A stretch of DNA of 64,000 bases from Paenisporosarcina sp. FSL H8-0542 (GTDB lineage Bacteria; Bacillota; Bacilli; Bacillales_A; Planococcaceae), in contig NZ_CP152050.1 of NCBI RefSeq assembly GCF_038632915.1, positions 1,395,001 through 1,459,000 of the forward strand. Direction: 5' to 3'. Below are positions 10,425 to 55,180 of the stretch, piece after piece. The translations under genes and the position numbers were made by a program. The notes beneath the pieces were generated by a model. It searched no databases. It saw only the letters and a list, made by a program, of their open reading frames with translations, and was not told the DNA's origin. Position 1 is the first letter of the stretch. Each line of letters starts with the position of its first letter.

Positions 10425-10500
10425 AAACGATGTTGCTGAAAGAAAGGGAATCTTTATCCCTTTAATTCAAAATCAACACAAAAAGTTAACAGAGCCAATT
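10425..10500. repeat. About 75-bp direct repeat, copy 2 (5' side of amylase gene)
   Basis: AAACGATGTTGCTGAA, AAGGGAATC, AAATCAACA and GTTAACAGAGC are conserved in order with copy 1 at 8549-8622. Relative to the amylase it lies in the promoter/leader region, so the same sequence occurs both upstream and immediately downstream of that gene. Confidence 0.65.
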
Positions 10501-10602
10501 TAAAAACTTCGTCTCAGATTAACAAAACAATTCAATCAATTCAATCCCTATTAACTTTATTGTTCTGAAAATGAGACATCCAGTCAACTAAAAAATTTCC
10601 TT

Positions 10603-10613
10603 TAACGATTGTT
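10603..10613. promoter_or_regulatory. Candidate maltodextrin-regulator site (motif AACAATCRTTA, inverse copy)
   Basis: TAACGATTGTT is the reverse complement of AACAATCGTTA, and with one more base on the left and two on the right it forms the near palindrome TTAACGATTGTTAA (10602-10615). Further copies lie at 10638-10648, 10714-10724 and 14810-14820, all upstream of the importer or its LacI-type regulator. Confidence 0.4.
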
Positions 10614-10624
10614 AAAAATAGTTA

Positions 10625-10652
10625 TTGTAAAATTAGAAACAATCATTATAAT
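10625..10652 (+). promoter_or_regulatory. Putative promoter of the maltodextrin importer operon
   Basis: TTGTAA at 10625-10630 and a perfect TATAAT at 10647-10652 are spaced 16 bp. The -10 region overlaps the AACAATCATTA motif (10638-10648), and a cre-like site begins about 15 bp downstream, a layout that suits repression. Confidence 0.5.
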
Positions 10653-10666
10653 TAAAACTATATTTG

Positions 10667-10680
10667 TGCAATCGCTTTCA
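10667..10680. promoter_or_regulatory. CcpA cre-like site 1
   Basis: TGCAATCGCTTTCA matches the catabolite-responsive element consensus TGWAANCGNTNWCA at all but the third position. It sits just past the predicted transcription start of the importer operon. Confidence 0.55.
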
Positions 10681-10740
10681 CAAGTTTAAAAGATTCGGAA
10701 AAGGTCTTTTGAAAACAATCATTATTTTTTTAAAAAGAGA

Positions 10741-10754
10741 TGATAGCGTTTTCA
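10741..10754. promoter_or_regulatory. CcpA cre-like site 2
   Basis: TGATAGCGTTTTCA matches the cre consensus at all but one fixed position. A LacI-family half-site pair, TGCAAACGGTTGTA, follows at 10777-10790, so the leader holds at least three candidate repressor sites. Confidence 0.55.
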
Positions 10755-10826
10755 TTTTTGCGAGTTTTTAGATTTGTGCAAACGGTTGTATAGGTGAGTG
10801 TTCAAAAAGATATTAGGAGGGTCATG

Positions 10827-12116
10827 ATGAAGAAAAGTTTATTTTTAATGATGCTTGTTCTTTTATTAGCAATGCTCGGCGCTTGTGCACCTGATCGTGC
10901 AGAAAATCCAGAAACTGACGGTAAAGACTCAGATGGCAAAGACGTGGCTGAAGAGCCTAAACCAGAGAAACTTGTAATCTGGGAAGATGTTGACAAGTCA
11001 AAAGACTGGTTACCAGCTGCTATCGAATCTTTCGAAAAAGAGTATGGTATCAAAGTTGAATTTAAAGAGTTGAATATGGCTGATAAAATCCGTGATCAAT
11101 TACGTCTAGATGGTCCAACAGGAAATGCTCCAGACGTTGTAACTCTTCCTCATGACCAAATCGGCCAAGTTGTAACTGAAGGACTTATTCAAGAAATTAA
11201 AGTTGAAGATTCAGTATTAAAAACATATAGCGAATCTTCAATTACTGCTCAAATGTATGATGGAAAACTTTTCGGTCTTCCTAAAGCAACAGAAACACCA
11301 GTATTTATTTATAACAAGGCATTAATGGAAAAAGCTCCTGAAACAATGGATGAGCTTTATACATTCTCTAAAGATTTCACAAAAGGTGAAAACTACGGAT
11401 TCCTTGCACTTTGGGATAACTTCTACTTTGCACACGGTGCGATTGCAGGTATGGGTGGATATGTGTTCAACGAAGGCGAAGAAGGTCTTGACCGTAAAGA
11501 TATTGGCTTGAACAATGAAGGCGCTGTAGAAGGTGCTGCATACATTCAAAAATGGTACACAGAAGGATTATTCCCTAAAGGTATCATCGGTGAAACTGGC
11601 GGCGCTGCAATGGACGGCCTATTTAACGAAGGTAAAGTTGCTGCAGTTATGAACGGACCTTGGGCATTCCAAGGAATGAGAGATGCAGGAGTTGACATCG
11701 GAATTGCTCCAATGCCAACACTTCCTAACGGAGAGCATGTTAAAACATTCATGGGTGTTAAAGGATGGCACGTAACGAAGTTCACGAAAAATCCTTACTG
11801 GGCAACAAAACTTATCGAACACTTGTCTAATGATGAAAACTCGAAAGCTCGTTTTGAAGCAGTTTCAGAAATTCCTGCTAACGTAGCATTAGTTGAAGAT
11901 CCAATTATTGCTGACAATGAAGGCGCTAAAGCAGTAGCTGTTCAATCTCAATACGCAGTGCCAATGCCAAACATTCCAGAAATGGGCGAAGTTTGGGGAC
12001 CAATGGCTTCTGCACTTCAAACTGTGGCTACAGGTAAATCTGAACCACAAGCAGCTTTGGACGAAGCTGTTAAAACTATCAAAACTAACATTGAAACAAA
12101 TCACCCAGCGAAATAA
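10827..12116 (+). CDS. mdxE: Maltodextrin ABC transporter substrate-binding lipoprotein
   Basis: A 429-residue family 1 (MalE-type) solute-binding protein. The N-terminus is a lipoprotein signal: MKKSLFLMMLVLLLAMLGAC with lipobox LGAC, so it is anchored outside the membrane. The body contains VIWEDVDKSKDW, the APDVVTLPHDQIGQ region and FNEGKVAAVMNGPWA, all typical of maltose/maltodextrin binders. ATG 10827 is preferred over ATG 10824 or the distant upstream start because AGGAGGG then has normal spacing. The sequence encodes no transport ATPase nearby; a shared MsmX-type ATPase elsewhere is expected from what is known of B. subtilis. Confidence 0.9.
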   Translation: MKKSLFLMMLVLLLAMLGACAPDRAENPETDGKDSDGKDVAEEPKPEKLVIWEDVDKSKDWLPAAIESFEKEYGIKVEFKELNMADKIRDQLRLDGPTGNAPDVVTLPHDQIGQVVTEGLIQEIKVEDSVLKTYSESSITAQMYDGKLFGLPKATETPVFIYNKALMEKAPETMDELYTFSKDFTKGENYGFLALWDNFYFAHGAIAGMGGYVFNEGEEGLDRKDIGLNNEGAVEGAAYIQKWYTEGLFPKGIIGETGGAAMDGLFNEGKVAAVMNGPWAFQGMRDAGVDIGIAPMPTLPNGEHVKTFMGVKGWHVTKFTKNPYWATKLIEHLSNDENSKARFEAVSEIPANVALVEDPIIADNEGAKAVAVQSQYAVPMPNIPEMGEVWGPMASALQTVATGKSEPQAALDEAVKTIKTNIETNHPAK

Positions 12117-12126
12117 TACTTGCTAA

Positions 12127-12310
12127 GTGTGTCTCCCAAAATCTACTCCGATGCCTGAGAAAGTTAATCGGTTACAACCACCTGCCATAGCTTCTTACCG
12201 TGGATATGGTAGAGATTTGGGTAGCATATCACGCTGGTATCAAAATGCTAGGAAAAGACATGGGCGGTATCCTTCATTCCGGAGGGTATTGCCTATCCTT
12301 TTATTTATCC
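12127..12310 (+). other. Hairpin-rich spacer between binding-protein and permease genes
   Basis: The 306-bp gap between the mdxE stop and the mdxF start holds several potential stems: CCGAT with ATCGG near 12149-12172, TACC with GGTA, AGCAT with ATGCT, and GGCGGTATCC with GGGTATTGCC (about 12264-12296) followed by TATCCTTTT. The last looks like a terminator or a transcript-end stabiliser. Such an element would lower permease expression relative to the binding protein, as the malE-malF repeats do in E. coli. It does not match a riboswitch class I can name. A 74-codon open frame across it lacks a ribosome binding site and is not called. Confidence 0.45.
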
Positions 12311-12316
12311 TATTAA

Positions 12317-12345
12317 TTACAGTTTTTCGAATAGCATACTATAAG
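12317..12345 (+). promoter_or_regulatory. Possible internal promoter before mdxF
   Basis: TTACAG (12317-12322) and TATAAG (12340-12345) with a 17-bp spacer, placed after the hairpin at about 12264-12296 and about 78 bp before the chosen mdxF start. Pattern match only. Confidence 0.35.
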
Positions 12346-12422
12346 TATTGAAAACTACAATTACCGATTGTGATACATACTCAACACTTTCTTCTATGCT
12401 GAAAAAGGAGGCCAAAGCCCGA

Positions 12423-13709
12423 ATGGAAGGTTTAACAACTGCTACTCATCATCGAAGAAATGCCACATTGCTCTCCATCATTCCTGGATTCGGACAGTTT
12501 TACAATAAGCAATTTATTAAAGGAATGATCTTTTTAATTTTAGCGGCATCGTTTGCCATCGTTTTTTCTGAGTTTTTAGGAGTAGGTTATTGGGGCATTG
12601 TCACTTTAGGGGAAATTGCTGGATTAGATAATTCAGTATTCCTGTTAATCGATGGCATCATTGCTTTAATTATCACCATCATGGGTCTATGTGTATATGC
12701 GTTTAATTTATATGACGCTTACCATAACGGAAAGAAACGTGATCTAGGTGAATCGGTAAACTCGGTAAGACAGCAATACCATAACTTAATAAATAATGGA
12801 TTTCCCTACTTAATGATCTCACCAGGATTCTTCCTCTTGATTTTTGTTGTTATTTTCCCAATATTATTTGTCATACTTTTGGCATTTACCAATTACGATT
12901 TGTACCATTCACCACCAGGAAATTTAGTGGACTGGGTTGGATTCCAAAACTTTATTGATATTTATAAACTGGACATTTGGAGAAAAACATTCTTTGCTGT
13001 ACTTGCTTGGACCATTGTATGGACTTTCGTTGCTACAACTTTCCAAGTAGCTTTAGGGATCTTCCTAGCGATTCTTGTTAATCAAAAGGATTTGAAAGGA
13101 AAAGCAATCATTCGTACAATCATGATTTTACCGTGGGCTGTTCCATCGTTCATCACAATATTGATTTTCTCGGGTATGTTCAACGAAACTTTCGGTGTCA
13201 TCAATAAATCCATCCTTCCCTTAATTGGGCTGGAAGCTGGGTTGCCTTGGATGACGAATGAAATGTGGACGAGATTTGCGTTAATTATGATTCAGACATG
13301 GTTAGGATTCCCGTTCATTTTTGCGATGACAACAGGGGTTCTTCAATCCATTCCTGATGAATTGTATGAAGCAGCAAATGTGGACGGCGCATCCATCATG
13401 CAAAAGTTCTTCTCGATTACGTTGCCGTTAGTGTTGTATGCGACGGCGCCAATTATCATTACTCAATATACATTCAATTTTAATAACTTTAACGTTATTT
13501 TCCTGTTCAACGGGGGAGGTCCTGCGATTCCGAGCCAAAATGCCGGGGGTACCGATATCCTCATATCCTGGATCTATCGTTTGACCATGACCAGTGCACA
13601 ATACGGAAAAGCGGCTGCTGTCACCATGATTCTTTCAATCATTGTCATCTCCGTAGCGTTGTGGCAATTTAAACGCACGAAATCTTTCCAAGAGGAGGAT
13701 ATGATGTAA
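12423..13709 (+). CDS. mdxF: Maltodextrin ABC transporter permease, MalF type
   Basis: A 428-residue integral membrane protein. Short N-terminal helices (LLSIIPGFGQFYNKQ leads into the first membrane pair) precede a cytoplasmic loop and the six-helix permease core. The EAA loop that docks the ATPase is visible as YEAANVDGA near residue 315. The ATG at 12423 has AAGGAGG 11 bases upstream; longer versions from TTG 12348 or ATG 12396 remain open and lack a better site. It pairs with the next gene to form the channel for maltodextrins delivered by the lipoprotein. Confidence 0.9.
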   Translation: MEGLTTATHHRRNATLLSIIPGFGQFYNKQFIKGMIFLILAASFAIVFSEFLGVGYWGIVTLGEIAGLDNSVFLLIDGIIALIITIMGLCVYAFNLYDAYHNGKKRDLGESVNSVRQQYHNLINNGFPYLMISPGFFLLIFVVIFPILFVILLAFTNYDLYHSPPGNLVDWVGFQNFIDIYKLDIWRKTFFAVLAWTIVWTFVATTFQVALGIFLAILVNQKDLKGKAIIRTIMILPWAVPSFITILIFSGMFNETFGVINKSILPLIGLEAGLPWMTNEMWTRFALIMIQTWLGFPFIFAMTTGVLQSIPDELYEAANVDGASIMQKFFSITLPLVLYATAPIIITQYTFNFNNFNVIFLFNGGGPAIPSQNAGGTDILISWIYRLTMTSAQYGKAAAVTMILSIIVISVALWQFKRTKSFQEEDMM

Positions 13710-13710
13710 C

Positions 13711-14553
13711 ATGAGTAATAAAAAAAGCAGAATCATCCGCCTCACGTTATCTTATTTAGCTATTTTAGCGATGGTTGCCGTTGTTGTGTATCCATTGCTA
13801 TGGGTTATTGGATCTTCATTTAATCCAGGTCAAAGTTTATCAGGATCAAAAATGTTTCCCGATAATCCAACATTCAAACATTATGATTTCTTGTTTGATA
13901 CAGAGAAATCCAATTACCTTCTTTGGTATTGGAATTCCATGAAAATAAGTGTCATTACGATGGTTTTAACGGTTATCTCTGTGTCATTTACAGCTTATGC
14001 CTTTTCACGATACCGTTTCTATGGAAGAAAGAACGGCTTGCTGACATTTTTAATCCTGCAAATGATTCCAAACTTTGCAGCATTAATCGCAATTTTCGTA
14101 TTAGCCATCCGTACAGGTTTGATTGATACTCATTTTGGATTAATTCTTGTGTATGTAGGTGGACAAATACCGATGAATACGTATCTGATGAAAGGTTATT
14201 TGGACACCATTCCTAGAGAACTGGATGAATCTGCAAAAATGGATGGTGCCGGTCATATGCGCATCTTCTTCCAAATTGTTATGCCTTTGGCTAAACCAAT
14301 CATTGCAGTTGTTGCATTGTTCTCGTTCATTGCACCTTTGGGTGATTTCATCCTCGCACGGATTTTACTACGCGATGATCAGAAATTTACACTTGCAGTA
14401 GGGCTATACGAAATGGTGGCCAAGCAGTTTGGTAATGAATTCACAAAGTTCGCAGCAGGTGCAGTATTAGTTGCAATTCCTATCGCGATTCTGTTCTTGA
14501 TGTTCCAAAAATATTTCGTATCTGGTCTAACAGCAGGCGGGACAAAAGGTTAA
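13711..14553 (+). CDS. mdxG: Maltodextrin ABC transporter permease, MalG type
   Basis: A protein of 280 residues, the standard MalG length, with six membrane segments and the EAA-type loop DESAKMDGA near residue 173. The first helix begins near residue 10 (LSYLAILAMVAVVVYPLLW). The start codon follows the mdxF stop by one base, with AGGAGGATATG as ribosome binding site inside mdxF, so expression is coupled. No malK-like ATPase follows; the next 320 bp hold tandem repeats and then the regulator gene. Confidence 0.92.
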   Translation: MSNKKSRIIRLTLSYLAILAMVAVVVYPLLWVIGSSFNPGQSLSGSKMFPDNPTFKHYDFLFDTEKSNYLLWYWNSMKISVITMVLTVISVSFTAYAFSRYRFYGRKNGLLTFLILQMIPNFAALIAIFVLAIRTGLIDTHFGLILVYVGGQIPMNTYLMKGYLDTIPRELDESAKMDGAGHMRIFFQIVMPLAKPIIAVVALFSFIAPLGDFILARILLRDDQKFTLAVGLYEMVAKQFGNEFTKFAAGAVLVAIPIAILFLMFQKYFVSGLTAGGTKG

Positions 14554-14610
14554 TACCCATGTTTAATTTGAATTTTTTATTAAAAGTTATGGAATCCGCG
14601 ACAAAAAAAC

Positions 14611-14724
14611 CTGCTTCTGCGGTTACTCGTCGCAAAGGTTTGGACCAACTGCTCCTGCGGTTACTCGTCGCAAAGGTTTGGACCAACTGCTCTTGCGGTT
14701 ACTCGTCGCAAAGATTATGGTCAA
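14611..14724 (+). repeat. Three tandem 38-bp repeats
   Basis: Units run 14611-14648, 14649-14686 and 14687-14724, each with the core GCGGTTACTCGTCGCAAAG. Units 1 and 2 differ at a single base; unit 3 diverges at its end into the TGGTCAAACTAC tail seen in repeats A and B. The array fills most of the gap between mdxG and the regulator. No separate T-tailed terminator for the importer operon was recognised, so the array's own weak hairpins may serve that role. Confidence 0.8.
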
Positions 14725-14809
14725 ACTACATTTTTGGATTTTGGTTCTTTATGAGACGAAATCAAAAAATAACCACTTGAATATTAATTATTTTGTAAAT
14801 TAATTCGTC

Positions 14810-14820
14810 AACAATCGTTA
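14810..14820. promoter_or_regulatory. Candidate regulator-binding motif overlapping the malR -10 region
   Basis: AACAATCGTTA runs into TATAAT (14819-14824), exactly as AACAATCATTA runs into TATAAT upstream of the importer. The shared arrangement suggests the LacI-type protein controls both its own gene and the importer. Confidence 0.4.
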
Positions 14821-14875
14821 TAATAGATTTATATGAATTATGGTTATGAAGTTCTTAAAGAGAGGATGAGGAGCT

Positions 14876-15910
14876 TTGGCCATCACAATCAAAGACGTTG
14901 CCAAACTATCAAATGTGGCACCTTCAACCGTGTCGAGGGTCATTGCGAATAACCCTCGAATCAGTGAAAAAACTAAAATTAAAGTAAGAGCTGCTATGGA
15001 TGAGCTAGGCTATCATCCGAATTTTATCGCTCGCAGTTTAGCTAATCAGTCAACAAGAGTCCTTGGATTGGTTTTGCCAAACTCAACAGATGTATTCTTC
15101 CAGAATCCATTTTTCCCGACAGTATTGAGAGGGTTAAGTGACGGAGCAAATGAACGACATTATGCCTTGCAGATCAATACGGGAAATACAGATGAAGAGA
15201 TTTTTGACGGGGTTGTACAAATGGTGCAGGGTGGCCGTGTTGACGGAGTCATCCTTTTATATTCCCGGATTGAAGACAAGGTCTTGAATTATTTGAGAGA
15301 AAGAAATTTTCCTTTTGTCGTAATAGGAAAACCGTTTAAAGATGTGGAGCAAATTACATATGTAGATAACGATAACTATAAAGCGACAAAAGAAGCGACG
15401 AGTTACTTGCTGAGCCTGGGTCATAAACAAATAGGTTTTATTGGTGGAGATCTGAACTTCGTGGTGACGGTCGAGCGGTTACTTGGTTTTGAAAAAGCTC
15501 TAGGTGAAGCTGGTCTTCAAAGCAACGACGATTATATTATACACAGTCAGTTTTTACGTGAAGGTGGGCAAGAGGCTATTGGGAAGCTCATCAATCTGGA
15601 AGAACCTCCTACCGCTTTGGTGGTGGCTGATGATTTAATTGCACTTGGCGTTTTGAATACATTGTTGGAAATGAATATTTCCGTCCCTGAAGACATGTCG
15701 ATCATCAGCTTCAATAATGTGCTTTTTACTGAACTGTCCCATCCACCTTTAACCTCAGTTGATATCAATATTTTCGAAATCGGCTATCAGGCGGCAAAAA
15801 GTATGATTCAACTATTGGAAAATCCAAATGAACCAGTTAAGAGGATCATAGTGGACCATGAAATCATTAAACGTTGCTCATGTTCTGAAAGCACAAAAAA
15901 ATATCTGTGA
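14876..15910 (+). CDS. malR: LacI-family transcriptional regulator, probable maltodextrin repressor
   Basis: A 344-residue protein with the LacI-type N-terminal DNA-binding domain (TIKDVAKLSNVAPSTVSRV, residues 4-22, followed by a hinge helix around residues 50-60) and a periplasmic-binding-protein-like effector domain (GLVLPNS, GFIGGD, ALVVADDLIALGVL). The start is TTG at 14876, giving MAITIKDVA with GATGAGGAG just upstream; this is the only start that keeps the complete HTH. Location after the importer genes and shared motifs at both promoters point to control of maltodextrin uptake. The inducer (maltose or a maltodextrin) is inferred from context. Confidence 0.88.
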   Translation: MAITIKDVAKLSNVAPSTVSRVIANNPRISEKTKIKVRAAMDELGYHPNFIARSLANQSTRVLGLVLPNSTDVFFQNPFFPTVLRGLSDGANERHYALQINTGNTDEEIFDGVVQMVQGGRVDGVILLYSRIEDKVLNYLRERNFPFVVIGKPFKDVEQITYVDNDNYKATKEATSYLLSLGHKQIGFIGGDLNFVVTVERLLGFEKALGEAGLQSNDDYIIHSQFLREGGQEAIGKLINLEEPPTALVVADDLIALGVLNTLLEMNISVPEDMSIISFNNVLFTELSHPPLTSVDINIFEIGYQAAKSMIQLLENPNEPVKRIIVDHEIIKRCSCSESTKKYL

Positions 15911-15926
15911 TCTTTAAAGAAATGAT

Positions 15927-15965
15927 AAAAAAGCTCGTCCAGAATTTATTGGACGAGCTTTTTTC
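15927..15965. terminator. Bidirectional terminator between malR and the amidase gene
   Basis: AAGCTCGTCC (15931-15940) and GGACGAGCTT (15951-15960) form a perfect 10-bp stem, with A run on the left and T run on the right, serving both convergent genes. Confidence 0.9.
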
Positions 15966-17533
15966 TATTCCAATTGATCATCGAAATAATTGACGACTCC
16001 ATTGTAAATGCCCAAAGATGCTTGTTCTCTGAATTGTTCAGTCGTCACTGCACGTTCTTCTGATGGATTACTCAGGAAACCAAGTTCAATCAAGATCGCT
16101 TGCTGACGATTTTCTCGCAGTACAAGATAATTTCCAGGCTGAGCACCGCGGTCACGCAAGGAAATTGTGTTCCCAAGGGATCGATGGACACTTTGAGCAA
16201 GTCCTTTTTGATAGCCATGCATGTAATAAGTAGTGAACCCATTAATCGCACTGCTGTCGGTTGCGTCATAATGAACACTGATAAAAGCATCTGCAGCGAG
16301 TTGATGGCCGATAGCCACGCGTTTTCGTAAGTCAACATAGACATCGGAATCGCGTGTCATGACGACATTGGCACCTGCAGACTGTAATTTGCTTGCCAAA
16401 AGTTCAGATGTGCGAAGTGTAATCCCTTTTTCATCCGTCCCTCTGGCTCCTGTAGTGCCGTGATCATTTCCACCATGCCCAGGATCGACAACGATGGTTA
16501 ATCCATTTAATGTGCCTTTTTTACGTGTTGATTCTGATTTCTGTTGGTGTGTTTCTTTTTCAGAGGCATCGGTAGAGATTACCCAATTGGCAACATAGCC
16601 TTTCGTGCCATTTGGCGTGATTACTTCGTACCAATCTCCAGTTTGTCCGATTGTTTCAAATGATTCGCCAGCATTTGCACGATAGACGACTTCACCCGAT
16701 GTGTCAGGAGTGGAACGCAAATTCGTACCATTGTATACAATAAAGATATTTTTGATTTTCGTTTTTTTACTACCTTGTTCTTGTTTCGGCTTCTCGGAAG
16801 AAGCAGTACTGGCAGTCGTAGTCAACGTTCCATAAAAAGAATAGACCCAGCCATGTTCATTAGGTGAAAGTTCGATATTCACCCAATTGTGTTGTTTTTC
16901 AATAATTTTAAATCGTTCCCCTTTATTGACGTTGGCAACTTTTTTTGCTGTTAAATCTGGTTTGGAACGGACGTTAAGACTATCAACTGAAACTTCGAAC
17001 TGATTTTCTTTCTTCGCGCTTTGCTTTGAAGGCTTAGAATCGTTTGTTTGAACCGTTATGTATTCTTTCGCAACAAAACCTTTAACTTGATTAAAGGAAA
17101 TCTCAACCCATTTTCCATGATCAGTCAACAGTGTCGCTTGATCGCCTGCAGAAAGTTTTGCTAGGACTGCTGCATCAATCGAAGGTTGGGAACGGACATT
17201 CAATCTGTCTACTTTAGAAACAACAAGTTGTCCGGTCGCTTGTTTCTTTTCACCCAATTGCTTCGTGTACCAAGATGCAACCCATCCCTCAGAAGTTCCA
17301 CGACGAACCTTTAACCAATCACCCTGTTGTTCAAGAACTAGCATTTGATCGCCCATGTTCATAGAAGCAATAATCGGATAGGCAAGTCCCGGTCCTGAAC
17401 GTAAATGTAAATTTGATACAGTCGACTGGACATTTTCACCTTCAGCTTGTATAGATGAAGGTAGGATAAGAGATAATAATAAAAATAGTGCTACTAAAAT
17501 TTGCCCATTTTGTCGAAGTTGAAATTTTGTCAT
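15965..17533 (-). CDS. N-acetylmuramoyl-L-alanine amidase with four SH3b domains (YrvJ-like)
   Basis: A 522-residue secreted cell-wall hydrolase. After a signal peptide (FLLLSLILPSSIQA, cleavage near residue 30) come four bacterial SH3 domains at about 34-93, 105-166, 178-235 and 257-320, each with an N/H-LRS-x-P or NVRS-x-P signature, then a linker and an Amidase_3 domain from about 346 (VVDPGHGG zinc histidine region near 352, SVHYD, and the catalytic IELGFLSN near 481). It cleaves the bond between MurNAc and the stem peptide. ATG 17533 is chosen because AAAGGAGGG lies directly upstream; a start 21 bp earlier lacks a site. Synteny matches B. subtilis yrvJ ahead of hisS. Confidence 0.92.
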   Translation of the reverse strand: MTKFQLRQNGQILVALFLLLSLILPSSIQAEGENVQSTVSNLHLRSGPGLAYPIIASMNMGDQMLVLEQQGDWLKVRRGTSEGWVASWYTKQLGEKKQATGQLVVSKVDRLNVRSQPSIDAAVLAKLSAGDQATLLTDHGKWVEISFNQVKGFVAKEYITVQTNDSKPSKQSAKKENQFEVSVDSLNVRSKPDLTAKKVANVNKGERFKIIEKQHNWVNIELSPNEHGWVYSFYGTLTTTASTASSEKPKQEQGSKKTKIKNIFIVYNGTNLRSTPDTSGEVVYRANAGESFETIGQTGDWYEVITPNGTKGYVANWVISTDASEKETHQQKSESTRKKGTLNGLTIVVDPGHGGNDHGTTGARGTDEKGITLRTSELLASKLQSAGANVVMTRDSDVYVDLRKRVAIGHQLAADAFISVHYDATDSSAINGFTTYYMHGYQKGLAQSVHRSLGNTISLRDRGAQPGNYLVLRENRQQAILIELGFLSNPSEERAVTTEQFREQASLGIYNGVVNYFDDQLE

Positions 17534-17644: not shown

Positions 17645-17918
17645 CAAACAAATTGCCAATGACCAAGAAAGTAGCTGTTTAATACGCTGTTAAGAGAGGG
17701 AAAGACGTGGCTGGAATCTTTCCTACAGAAGCACTCAGTGAACAACACTTGGTAGGTTTTTCGTCGAAATACCCTCGCGGTGCAGTAGGCGGAAACGGAA
17801 CCGGTCGTTATCCGGATTGAGAGGACACAAGTTTTTTGTGTCAATTAGGGTGGAACCGCGGAAGCTAACATTAGCTCTCGTCCCTTGCGTTTTTGCGCAA
17901 GGGGCGGGAGCTTTTTAT
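17645..17918 (+). ncRNA. T-box leader controlling hisS-aspS
   Basis: The T-box sequence AGGGTGGAACCGCGG is at 17847-17861. Downstream is the terminator hairpin (GCTCTCGTCCCTTGCG with GCGCAAGGGGCGGGAGC, then TTTTT), and upstream a structured Stem I region. The likely specifier is the histidine codon CAC at 17746-17748. Uncharged tRNA-His would pair with the specifier and the T-box bulge and allow read-through into hisS. Because aspS overlaps hisS, both synthetases should respond to histidine starvation. The specifier position is inferred, the T-box itself is clear. Confidence 0.92.
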
Positions 17919-21059: not shown

Positions 21060-21297
21060 TAACACGAATCCTGATGTGTTCGTTAATTGCCAATCGCTTT
21101 TGACCGAACAATAATATCGTCGGGAATCCTCCTTTTATAATGGCTAACATGCCCCCAGGGGACGTTATAAGTTGTAAAGTGGATACCCACCTGCTGTGTG
21201 CGGGTTCAAAACGATACGCTTCATAATGACGGCACGATTGGGATTCGTCCTACATTATGAATAATCCCTCTAGCTTGTTTCAAGCTAGAGGGTTTTT
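21060..21297 (+). ncRNA. bsrB: 6S RNA (BsrB/SsrS type)
   Basis: The RNA lies between aspS and tcdA, the same location as bsrB in B. subtilis. Ends pair as ACGAATCC (21064-21071) with GGATTCGT (21241-21248), enclosing a long, partly paired rod with an unpaired centre, the hallmark of 6S RNA, which mimics an open promoter and sequesters the sigma-A RNA polymerase holoenzyme. The coordinates include the 3' terminator, a perfect 12-bp hairpin CCCTCTAGCTTG/CAAGCTAGAGGG (21266-21292) plus T run. The mature RNA probably ends near 21255. No open reading frame competes. Confidence 0.85.
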
Positions 21298-30877: not shown

Positions 30878-31106
30878 ATGAAAACGTTGATGGAGAAAGT
30901 ACATTTGAGAAGCTTGCAAAAGAAAGAGGTTCCTTGGCTGAAAGAACCTTCAAGTGGATGTTATGGAAAGCTACTCCTGAGTGCAGCTAATCACTGCCGT
31001 AAGCCGCGTTAAGGCATAATCGAGAGACAGCAAATTCGTTTGCTGTAACTAGGGTGGTACCGCGAATTGAAGCCTTCGTCCCTTTTTTAGGGATGAGGGC
31101 TTTTTC
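30878..31106 (+). ncRNA. T-box leader of alaS
   Basis: The T-box AGGGTGGTACCGCG is at 31051-31064, and the terminator hairpin (AGCCTTCGTCCCT with AGGGATGAGGGCT, then TTTTT) at 31070-31106. Stem I and the K-turn-containing region precede them. A likely specifier is the alanine codon GCT at 30970-30972. Uncharged tRNA-Ala should disrupt the terminator and permit alaS expression. Unusually, the terminator is followed by nearly 250 more bases before alaS. Confidence 0.92.
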
Positions 31107-35151: not shown

Positions 35152-35349
35152 AGACGCCTTGCATGCAAAGGAACGAAGGTTAAAAACGCCACGTCCTACT
35201 CCTGCGGTAACTCTTCGCAAAAAAAAAATTGTGACAACACCTTCATGACCCACTTCATGTGGGCCTAAGCGTGAAGAATGAGACCCACAAGTATGTGGTT
35301 TTCATACTTGTTAGCTCATGCTGAACATGTGGCTAGCGCAAAATTACGA
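35152..35349. repeat. Mosaic intergenic repeat, copy C
   Basis: This combines pieces found separately elsewhere. AAAGGAACGAAGG with the ACACCTTCATGACC and TGTGGGCCT parts resembles 55072-55145, CTCCTGCGGTAACTCTTCGCAAA resembles the second module of copies A and B, and 35270-35349 is the first module in reverse (GAGACCCACAAG, then GCTCATGCTGAACATGTGGC). No coding frame is supported. Confidence 0.7.
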
Positions 35350-55017: not shown

Positions 55018-55180
55018 AGGAACCTGCGACACTCCTGCGGAAAAACGGGCTGTCAAGACCCTCAGTGAGGACAAAGGAACGAAGGCTAAGAACACCACCT
55101 CGTATGGCAACACCTTTGTGACCAACATCCTGTTGGCCTGAGGAGGCTTGCCAGTTCGTCCTTGGAAAGGGGGCGTGATT
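55018..55180. repeat. Dispersed intergenic repeat, copy D
   Basis: This contains ACTCCTGCGG, AAAGGAACGAAGGCTAAG, ACACCTTTGTGACC and TGTTGGCCTGAGG, a pattern related to the left part of copy C (35152-35262). It fills the gap between the holA and rpsT terminators; neither strand has a supported gene. Confidence 0.65.

Follow-up and report, generated by a model that had tools for sequence, protein, structure and literature searches.

A conserved hairpin behind the binding-protein gene of a Bacillales maltodextrin importer operon and its probable part in setting subunit proportions

Introduction

What is the role of a long, structured spacer that separates the binding-protein gene of a sugar importer from its permease gene? 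The question is raised by a locus of Paenisporosarcina sp. FSL H8-0542 (genome size, 3.63 Mb), which lies within a 64,000-nucleotide stretch of contig NZ_CP152050.1, referred to here as the window. An initial annotation had reported a 306-bp spacer between mdxE and mdxF, and this spacer is real: 306 nt (12117–12422) extend from the stop codon of the binding-protein gene to the permease ATG at 12423, and the ribosome binding site noted ahead of mdxF is found as AAGGAGG at 12405–12411 (+ strand).

The mdxE-like binding-protein gene (10794–12116, + strand), listed as an open reading frame from a GTG codon with a lipoprotein signal behind this codon, scores 508.5 bits against the NCBIfam model GanS (cut-off 700) and 212.6 bits against MalE (cut-off 291). 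The mdxF-like permease frame (12423–13709, + strand) scores 231.6 bits against MalF (cut-off 392). NCBIfam assigns the three importer genes to maltose/maltodextrin or galactooligosaccharide importers, with every score under the curated cut-off, so that mdxE and mdxF serve here as family-level names. A cyclomaltodextrinase/maltodextrin-glucosidase-like gene adjoins the importer genes on the opposite strand and a LacI-type regulator gene lies downstream of them, both with NCBIfam scores under cut-off. The window permease shares 99.8% identity with its counterpart in Paenisporosarcina sp. HGH0030, of the same species, and 97.4% with the one in P. quisquiliarum. Elsewhere in the window, an Rfam search locates two T-box leaders (17650–17888 and 30878–31086), one 6S RNA (21065–21248), and two Bacillaceae-1 RNAs (35164–35263 and 55070–55136).

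The same place in the maltose importer operon of E. coli, between malE and malF, holds REP hairpins, copies of a multicopy repeat, which are thought to give more binding protein. Unlike these, the spacer of the window finds in its own genome, besides itself, just five short partial matches (18–27 bases, E up to 1), and a REP-like repeat, for which many genomic copies would be expected, was rejected.

The Spacer Hairpin and Its Tail

The whole spacer folds with −79.5 kcal/mol and a z-score of −2.47, a value equalled by 3 of 100 shuffles. Its strongest stem, previously placed at about 12264–12296 and described as followed by a T-rich tract, belongs to a core hairpin at 12260–12296 (+ strand) with 16 base pairs, six of them G-C, which is proposed here as a weak internal terminator and a protector of the binding-protein mRNA 3′ end. 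AAAAG/CTTTT pairing lengthens this core into an extended hairpin (12253–12302, + strand; −24.8 kcal/mol), in which an A-tract (12253–12257) is paired with a U-tract (12298–12302). In the ensemble of the whole spacer, the mean pair probability of the core is 0.986 in the window, and it ranges from 0.94 to 0.99 over three close genomes. The tail, CCTTTTATTTATCC (12297–12310, + strand), is T-rich, weak, and interrupted, with a longest T run of four located behind TATCC; the window thus lacks the five or more U directly 3′ of the stem that mark a canonical intrinsic terminator (CCTTTTATTT). The core hairpin is the sole terminator-like site on the + strand within 10500–16000, and as five such sites occur region-wide against 4.5 expected, the scan by itself is no evidence.

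No Rfam family matches the spacer at its gathering score; with the E limit relaxed to 5, the search gives three matches of chance level, two of which overlap the spacer on the minus strand (E 2.8 and 3) and lie far under their gathering scores. A 66-codon frame within the spacer (12151–12351), open in two strains and with a basic and hydrophobic product, was considered as a small membrane protein and discarded, as no ribosome binding site is seen and the frame is broken in P. quisquiliarum.

Conservation of the Hairpin among Relatives

Comparison with related loci drew on two sources. By protein search, the permease occurs in 34 of 261 family genomes. These supplied 30 loci, the window's included, and a further 80 named loci are the best-ranking ones among at least 490 in public genomes. 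Ten of the best 80 repeat genomes already present among the family loci and were dropped; 100 spacers remained, 30 from family loci and 70 from the best 80 named loci. The binding-protein gene lies upstream of the permease in 30 of 30 family loci and in all of the best 80 named loci; in two loci (L036 and L037), the binding-protein gene occurs twice, the second copy standing between the stop codon of the first and the permease, ahead of the hairpin.

A hairpin of −15 kcal/mol or lower is present in 99 of these 100 spacers, against 68 of 500 shuffles, and one of −20 kcal/mol or lower in 90, against 8 of 500; the median of the best hairpins is −23.7 kcal/mol compared with −11.0 in shuffles, where the choice of the best hairpin covers the initial 330 nt of the spacer and often falls on a second one in spacers of the Rossellomorea type. 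Of this type, loci L084–L086, L089, L092, L093, L095, and L097 carry a second long hairpin of about 52 nt (TTCAAGGGCTTTTTAAGG...CTTAAAAAGCTCTTGAA) behind the first, and variants of it occur in L096 and L098. In four other Paenisporosarcina genomes, the distance from the stop codon to the core hairpin is just 17–87 nt, compared with 146 nt in the window. Bacillaceae-1 RNA elements (RF01690) reside within the mdxE–mdxF spacer in two Psychrobacillus-group genomes (L043, 1348–1414; L044, 2853–2919 and 3004–3069, in locus coordinates).

The stem is also largely kept in sequence across many genera. A related stem with the consensus AGCGGTACCTC-loop-GAGGTACTGCT is matched as a pattern in 47 of the best 80 named loci, compared with 1 of 1600 shuffles; the remainder of these loci, 1,228,618 strand-bases without the spacers, contains seven matches. 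Some of the remaining 33 carry visible variants of the stem, other non-matching loci use a different one, as in Psychrobacillus and Chryseomicrobium, and a few spacers, such as both from Peribacillus, show no clear stem near mdxE.

Covariation in an alignment of related mdxEF spacers had been put forward as a check on the structure, and the hairpin does covary. The alignment contains 35 hairpins, namely 34 of the 47 pattern-matched loci plus the window; the 13 omitted comprise L073, replaced by the window, and near copies. Base pairing is found in 93.4% of cells, and 62 cells carry changes on both sides of a pair, where shuffles average 24.1 and none of 500 reaches that count. Sliding the partner columns lowers the count to 22 or fewer. 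Both-side changes occur in 7 of 14 pairs, a less telling figure (5.7 in shuffles, equalled by 60 of 500). Kinship among the 35 sequences inflates both counts. Because the pattern fixes the core letters, the invariance of the core is partly a product of selection, and covariation comes mainly from the outer and loop-side pairs.

Terminators from the same genomes served as controls. By eye, the stem of the rpsO terminator, AAGCGGGA...TCCCGCTTTT, stays constant throughout the same genera (21 genomes), its arms being kept as are those of the window hairpin, whereas the stems of the rpsT terminator differ among genera; stem conservation alone therefore says little for or against an additional function, and its reading as a sign of protein binding is weakened by these controls. 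The loop length differs among relatives, which speaks against a DNA operator with fixed spacing. The covariance model of the hairpin also matches elsewhere, and several of the few matches inspected resemble ordinary terminators, for example one 3′ of tRNA-Leu in the window's genome.

The rpsO and rpsT terminators differ from the window hairpin in their end-of-gene position and strong U-tracts, and the same holds for tail strength in the wider sample. A T run of at least five within 12 nt follows 15 of 21 rpsO and 18 of 22 rpsT terminators (22 of the same genomes), figures that are if anything low since the misses (6 of 21 and 4 of 22) result partly from counting at the outer stem. Such a run follows only 10 of the 100 spacer hairpins (70 from the best 80 named loci), a tally in which, for ten rows (L044, L053, L078, L081, L099, L100, L105, L118, L122, and L127), the hairpin taken by the script was truncated or not clearly the one nearest the binding-protein gene. 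In the same 100, the median stem energy is −23.2 kcal/mol, against −17.7 for rpsO and −21.1 for rpsT. The spacer hairpins thus combine a strong stem with a weak tail, and 59 of the 100 show no T run longer than three, e.g., AAATAATG in Neobacillus sp. DY30.

A Weak Terminator or a Barrier to Exonucleases

Literature entries on mdxE/mdxF, on the malE–malF REP, and on binding-protein stem-loop stoichiometry contain, judged by the entries, no apparent description of this spacer, and a single paper from the same fields, Wu et al. 2022 (PMC9045158), deals with the mechanism. That paper describes weak, U-poor internal terminators behind the binding-protein genes of ABC importers. It lists 191 stem-loops with energies from −38.3 to −10.1 kcal/mol; 62 of these, assigned to Type III, have a U-rich tract that pairs beyond a gap of one to two bases, and termination of 20.7–96.1% was measured for the tested stem-loops in reporter assays from Ruminiclostridium. 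Similar to these, the window hairpin is located right behind the binding-protein gene that heads the importer genes and before a translocator gene, and it has a long stable stem with an energy inside the published range, a U-poor tail, and, by eye, a U-tract paired after a short unpaired stretch as in Type III. In contrast to the GC-rich Clostridia stems of Wu et al. 2022, the Bacillales stem of the window has a G-C share of 6 of 16 pairs, though it reaches −24.8 kcal/mol. According to that study, terminator stems seem not to be conserved in sequence, whereas the Bacillales stem is kept across genera, and an extra 125-nt fold lies upstream in the window's lineage. A figure legend in a Listeria paper (PMC2860498) marks a putative terminator.

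Immediately behind the binding-protein gene, the spacer probably carries an intrinsic terminator that is weak and leaky. RNA polymerase arriving from upstream of this gene would reach a long hairpin that is stable but has only a weak U-tract, and there a fraction of the transcripts would stop while the remainder would continue into the permease genes. The stopped transcripts would carry a strong 3′ hairpin and should also withstand exonucleases, and the level of binding-protein mRNA would exceed that of permease mRNA. The likeliest effect of the hairpin is that binding protein is produced in excess of permease. The first description of the spacer as terminator-like and structured agrees with its z-score and with the conserved, covarying hairpin, and appears to fit the published mechanism; the predicted excess of binding protein over permease is consistent with the same hairpin and mechanism.

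The low G-C share of the window stem counts against the terminator reading and fits a different one, in which the hairpin is a processing site or a block to 3′ exonucleases, and the binding-protein part of the mRNA outlives the permease part with no termination, as in the malE–malF REP region of E. coli. Strong stems whose T runs never exceed three, in 59 of the 100 spacers (70 from the best 80 named loci), favour protection or processing over termination in those spacers, and the discussion of Wu et al. 2022 (PMC9045158) also links stem energy to the stability of the upstream transcript. However, the window tail is T-rich and paired with an A-tract, the kind that the same paper puts among working terminators, and protection and termination can operate jointly; for the window, a role without termination is rather unlikely, albeit one to be taken seriously.

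On the terminator reading, the arrangement is an ordinary one that has already been described, and the understanding of the mechanism is unchanged. The hairpin itself is real and conserved, fits a known kind, and probably helps to set the proportions of the subunits. The maltodextrin importers of Bacillales would join other operons whose subunit ratio is probably governed by a weak terminator 3′ of the binding-protein gene, and the covarying alignment of 35 hairpins could be used as a test set for relating stem strength and U-tract length to read-through.

Internal Promoter and Switching RNA

Neither a promoter nor a switch is supported as a reading of the spacer. An internal promoter, TTACAG-17-TATAAG, had been proposed, which would yield additional permease mRNA. 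TATAAG agrees with TATAAT at five of six positions, and the alternative reading at the same place, ATTACA-18-TATAAG, reaches 9/12, the best two-hexamer score in the spacer; TATAAG is kept in three of seven Paenisporosarcina spacers, those of P. quisquiliarum and of both genomes of the window's species. However, TTACAG (12317) agrees with TTGACA at only two of six positions, the best score of the spacer is equalled by 63% of 300 shuffles and is not above chance, and TATAAG is absent from the four other Paenisporosarcina spacers, which leaves the promoter highly improbable. The promoter scan requires a final T in the −10 hexamer, so TATAAG is unlisted there. Upstream of the binding-protein gene, a promoter-like site at 10625 scores 10/12, better than the best of the spacer, and a cre/LacI-like palindrome lies near it at 10667; by the same scan, promoter-like sites in the region as a whole are no commoner than in shuffles.

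Between the stop codon and the hairpin, in one Paenisporosarcina branch, lies a potential Y-shaped RNA fold of 125 nt (12117–12241, + strand), which consists of an outer stem and hairpins at about 12148–12171 and 12182–12212 and can form a three-way junction. Its 36 pairs include five with both-side changes among three sequences, equalled in 1 of 500 shuffles, and its z-score is −5.0 in P. quisquiliarum, −2.2 in the window, and −0.8, no better than chance, in strain HGH0030. The covariance model of the fold finds it only at this locus, in three of nine genus genomes and three of 121 family genomes (121 of the 261, under stricter filters), the own genome included in both counts, and it has no match in plasmid and phage collections. 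The fold may be a decaying structured insertion or a young regulatory RNA; that it is a lineage-specific RNA tuning the termination frequency at the older hairpin or the stability of the binding-protein mRNA is highly improbable. A different single-copy insert, with no match in the window's genome, occupies the same place in three genomes of another genus.

Of the alternative pairings suggested within this region, CCATA/TATGG is kept in the three sequences with one compensating change (UA to GC), but TACC/GGTA shows no both-side change and, although retained through a wobble pair in HGH0030, is lost in P. quisquiliarum, so that the two conserved, mutually exclusive pairings of a switching RNA are not found. 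The switching RNA left open by the initial annotation is not supported, and a fold that senses a ligand or factor and governs the terminator is highly improbable, despite the both-side changes and the z-scores of P. quisquiliarum and the window, given the lost pairing, the narrow distribution of the fold, its chance-level z-score in HGH0030, the hairpin pair probability of 0.94–0.99, the lack of Rfam matches overlapping the fold at E up to 5, and the finding that no ungapped upstream stretch complements the hairpin, as an anti-terminator would, beyond shuffles.

Further Elements in Related Spacers

Other elements appear in the spacers of relatives. In L031, L033, L065–L068, and several Psychrobacillus-group loci, the ribosome binding site of the permease gene can be masked through a CTTTCTCC...GAAAGGGGAGG arrangement. 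The mean unpaired probability of the Shine–Dalgarno sequence is 0.00–0.30 in those relatives, compared with 0.45 in the window, where a weaker form lies at 12388–12411; sequestration of the ribosome site is thus strong in several relatives but weak in the window. LacI-type operator-like palindromes (GCAAACGNTTGC or GCAAGCGTTTGC), not found in the spacer of the window, are located inside 13 of 110 spacers scanned, 11 from the best 80 named loci (L064, L075, L078, L087, L099, L106, L108, L111, L136, L138, and L139) and 2 from the 30 family loci (L049 and L051). They lie mostly 3′ of the hairpin, and their presence suggests that these relatives have an additional point of control ahead of mdxF.
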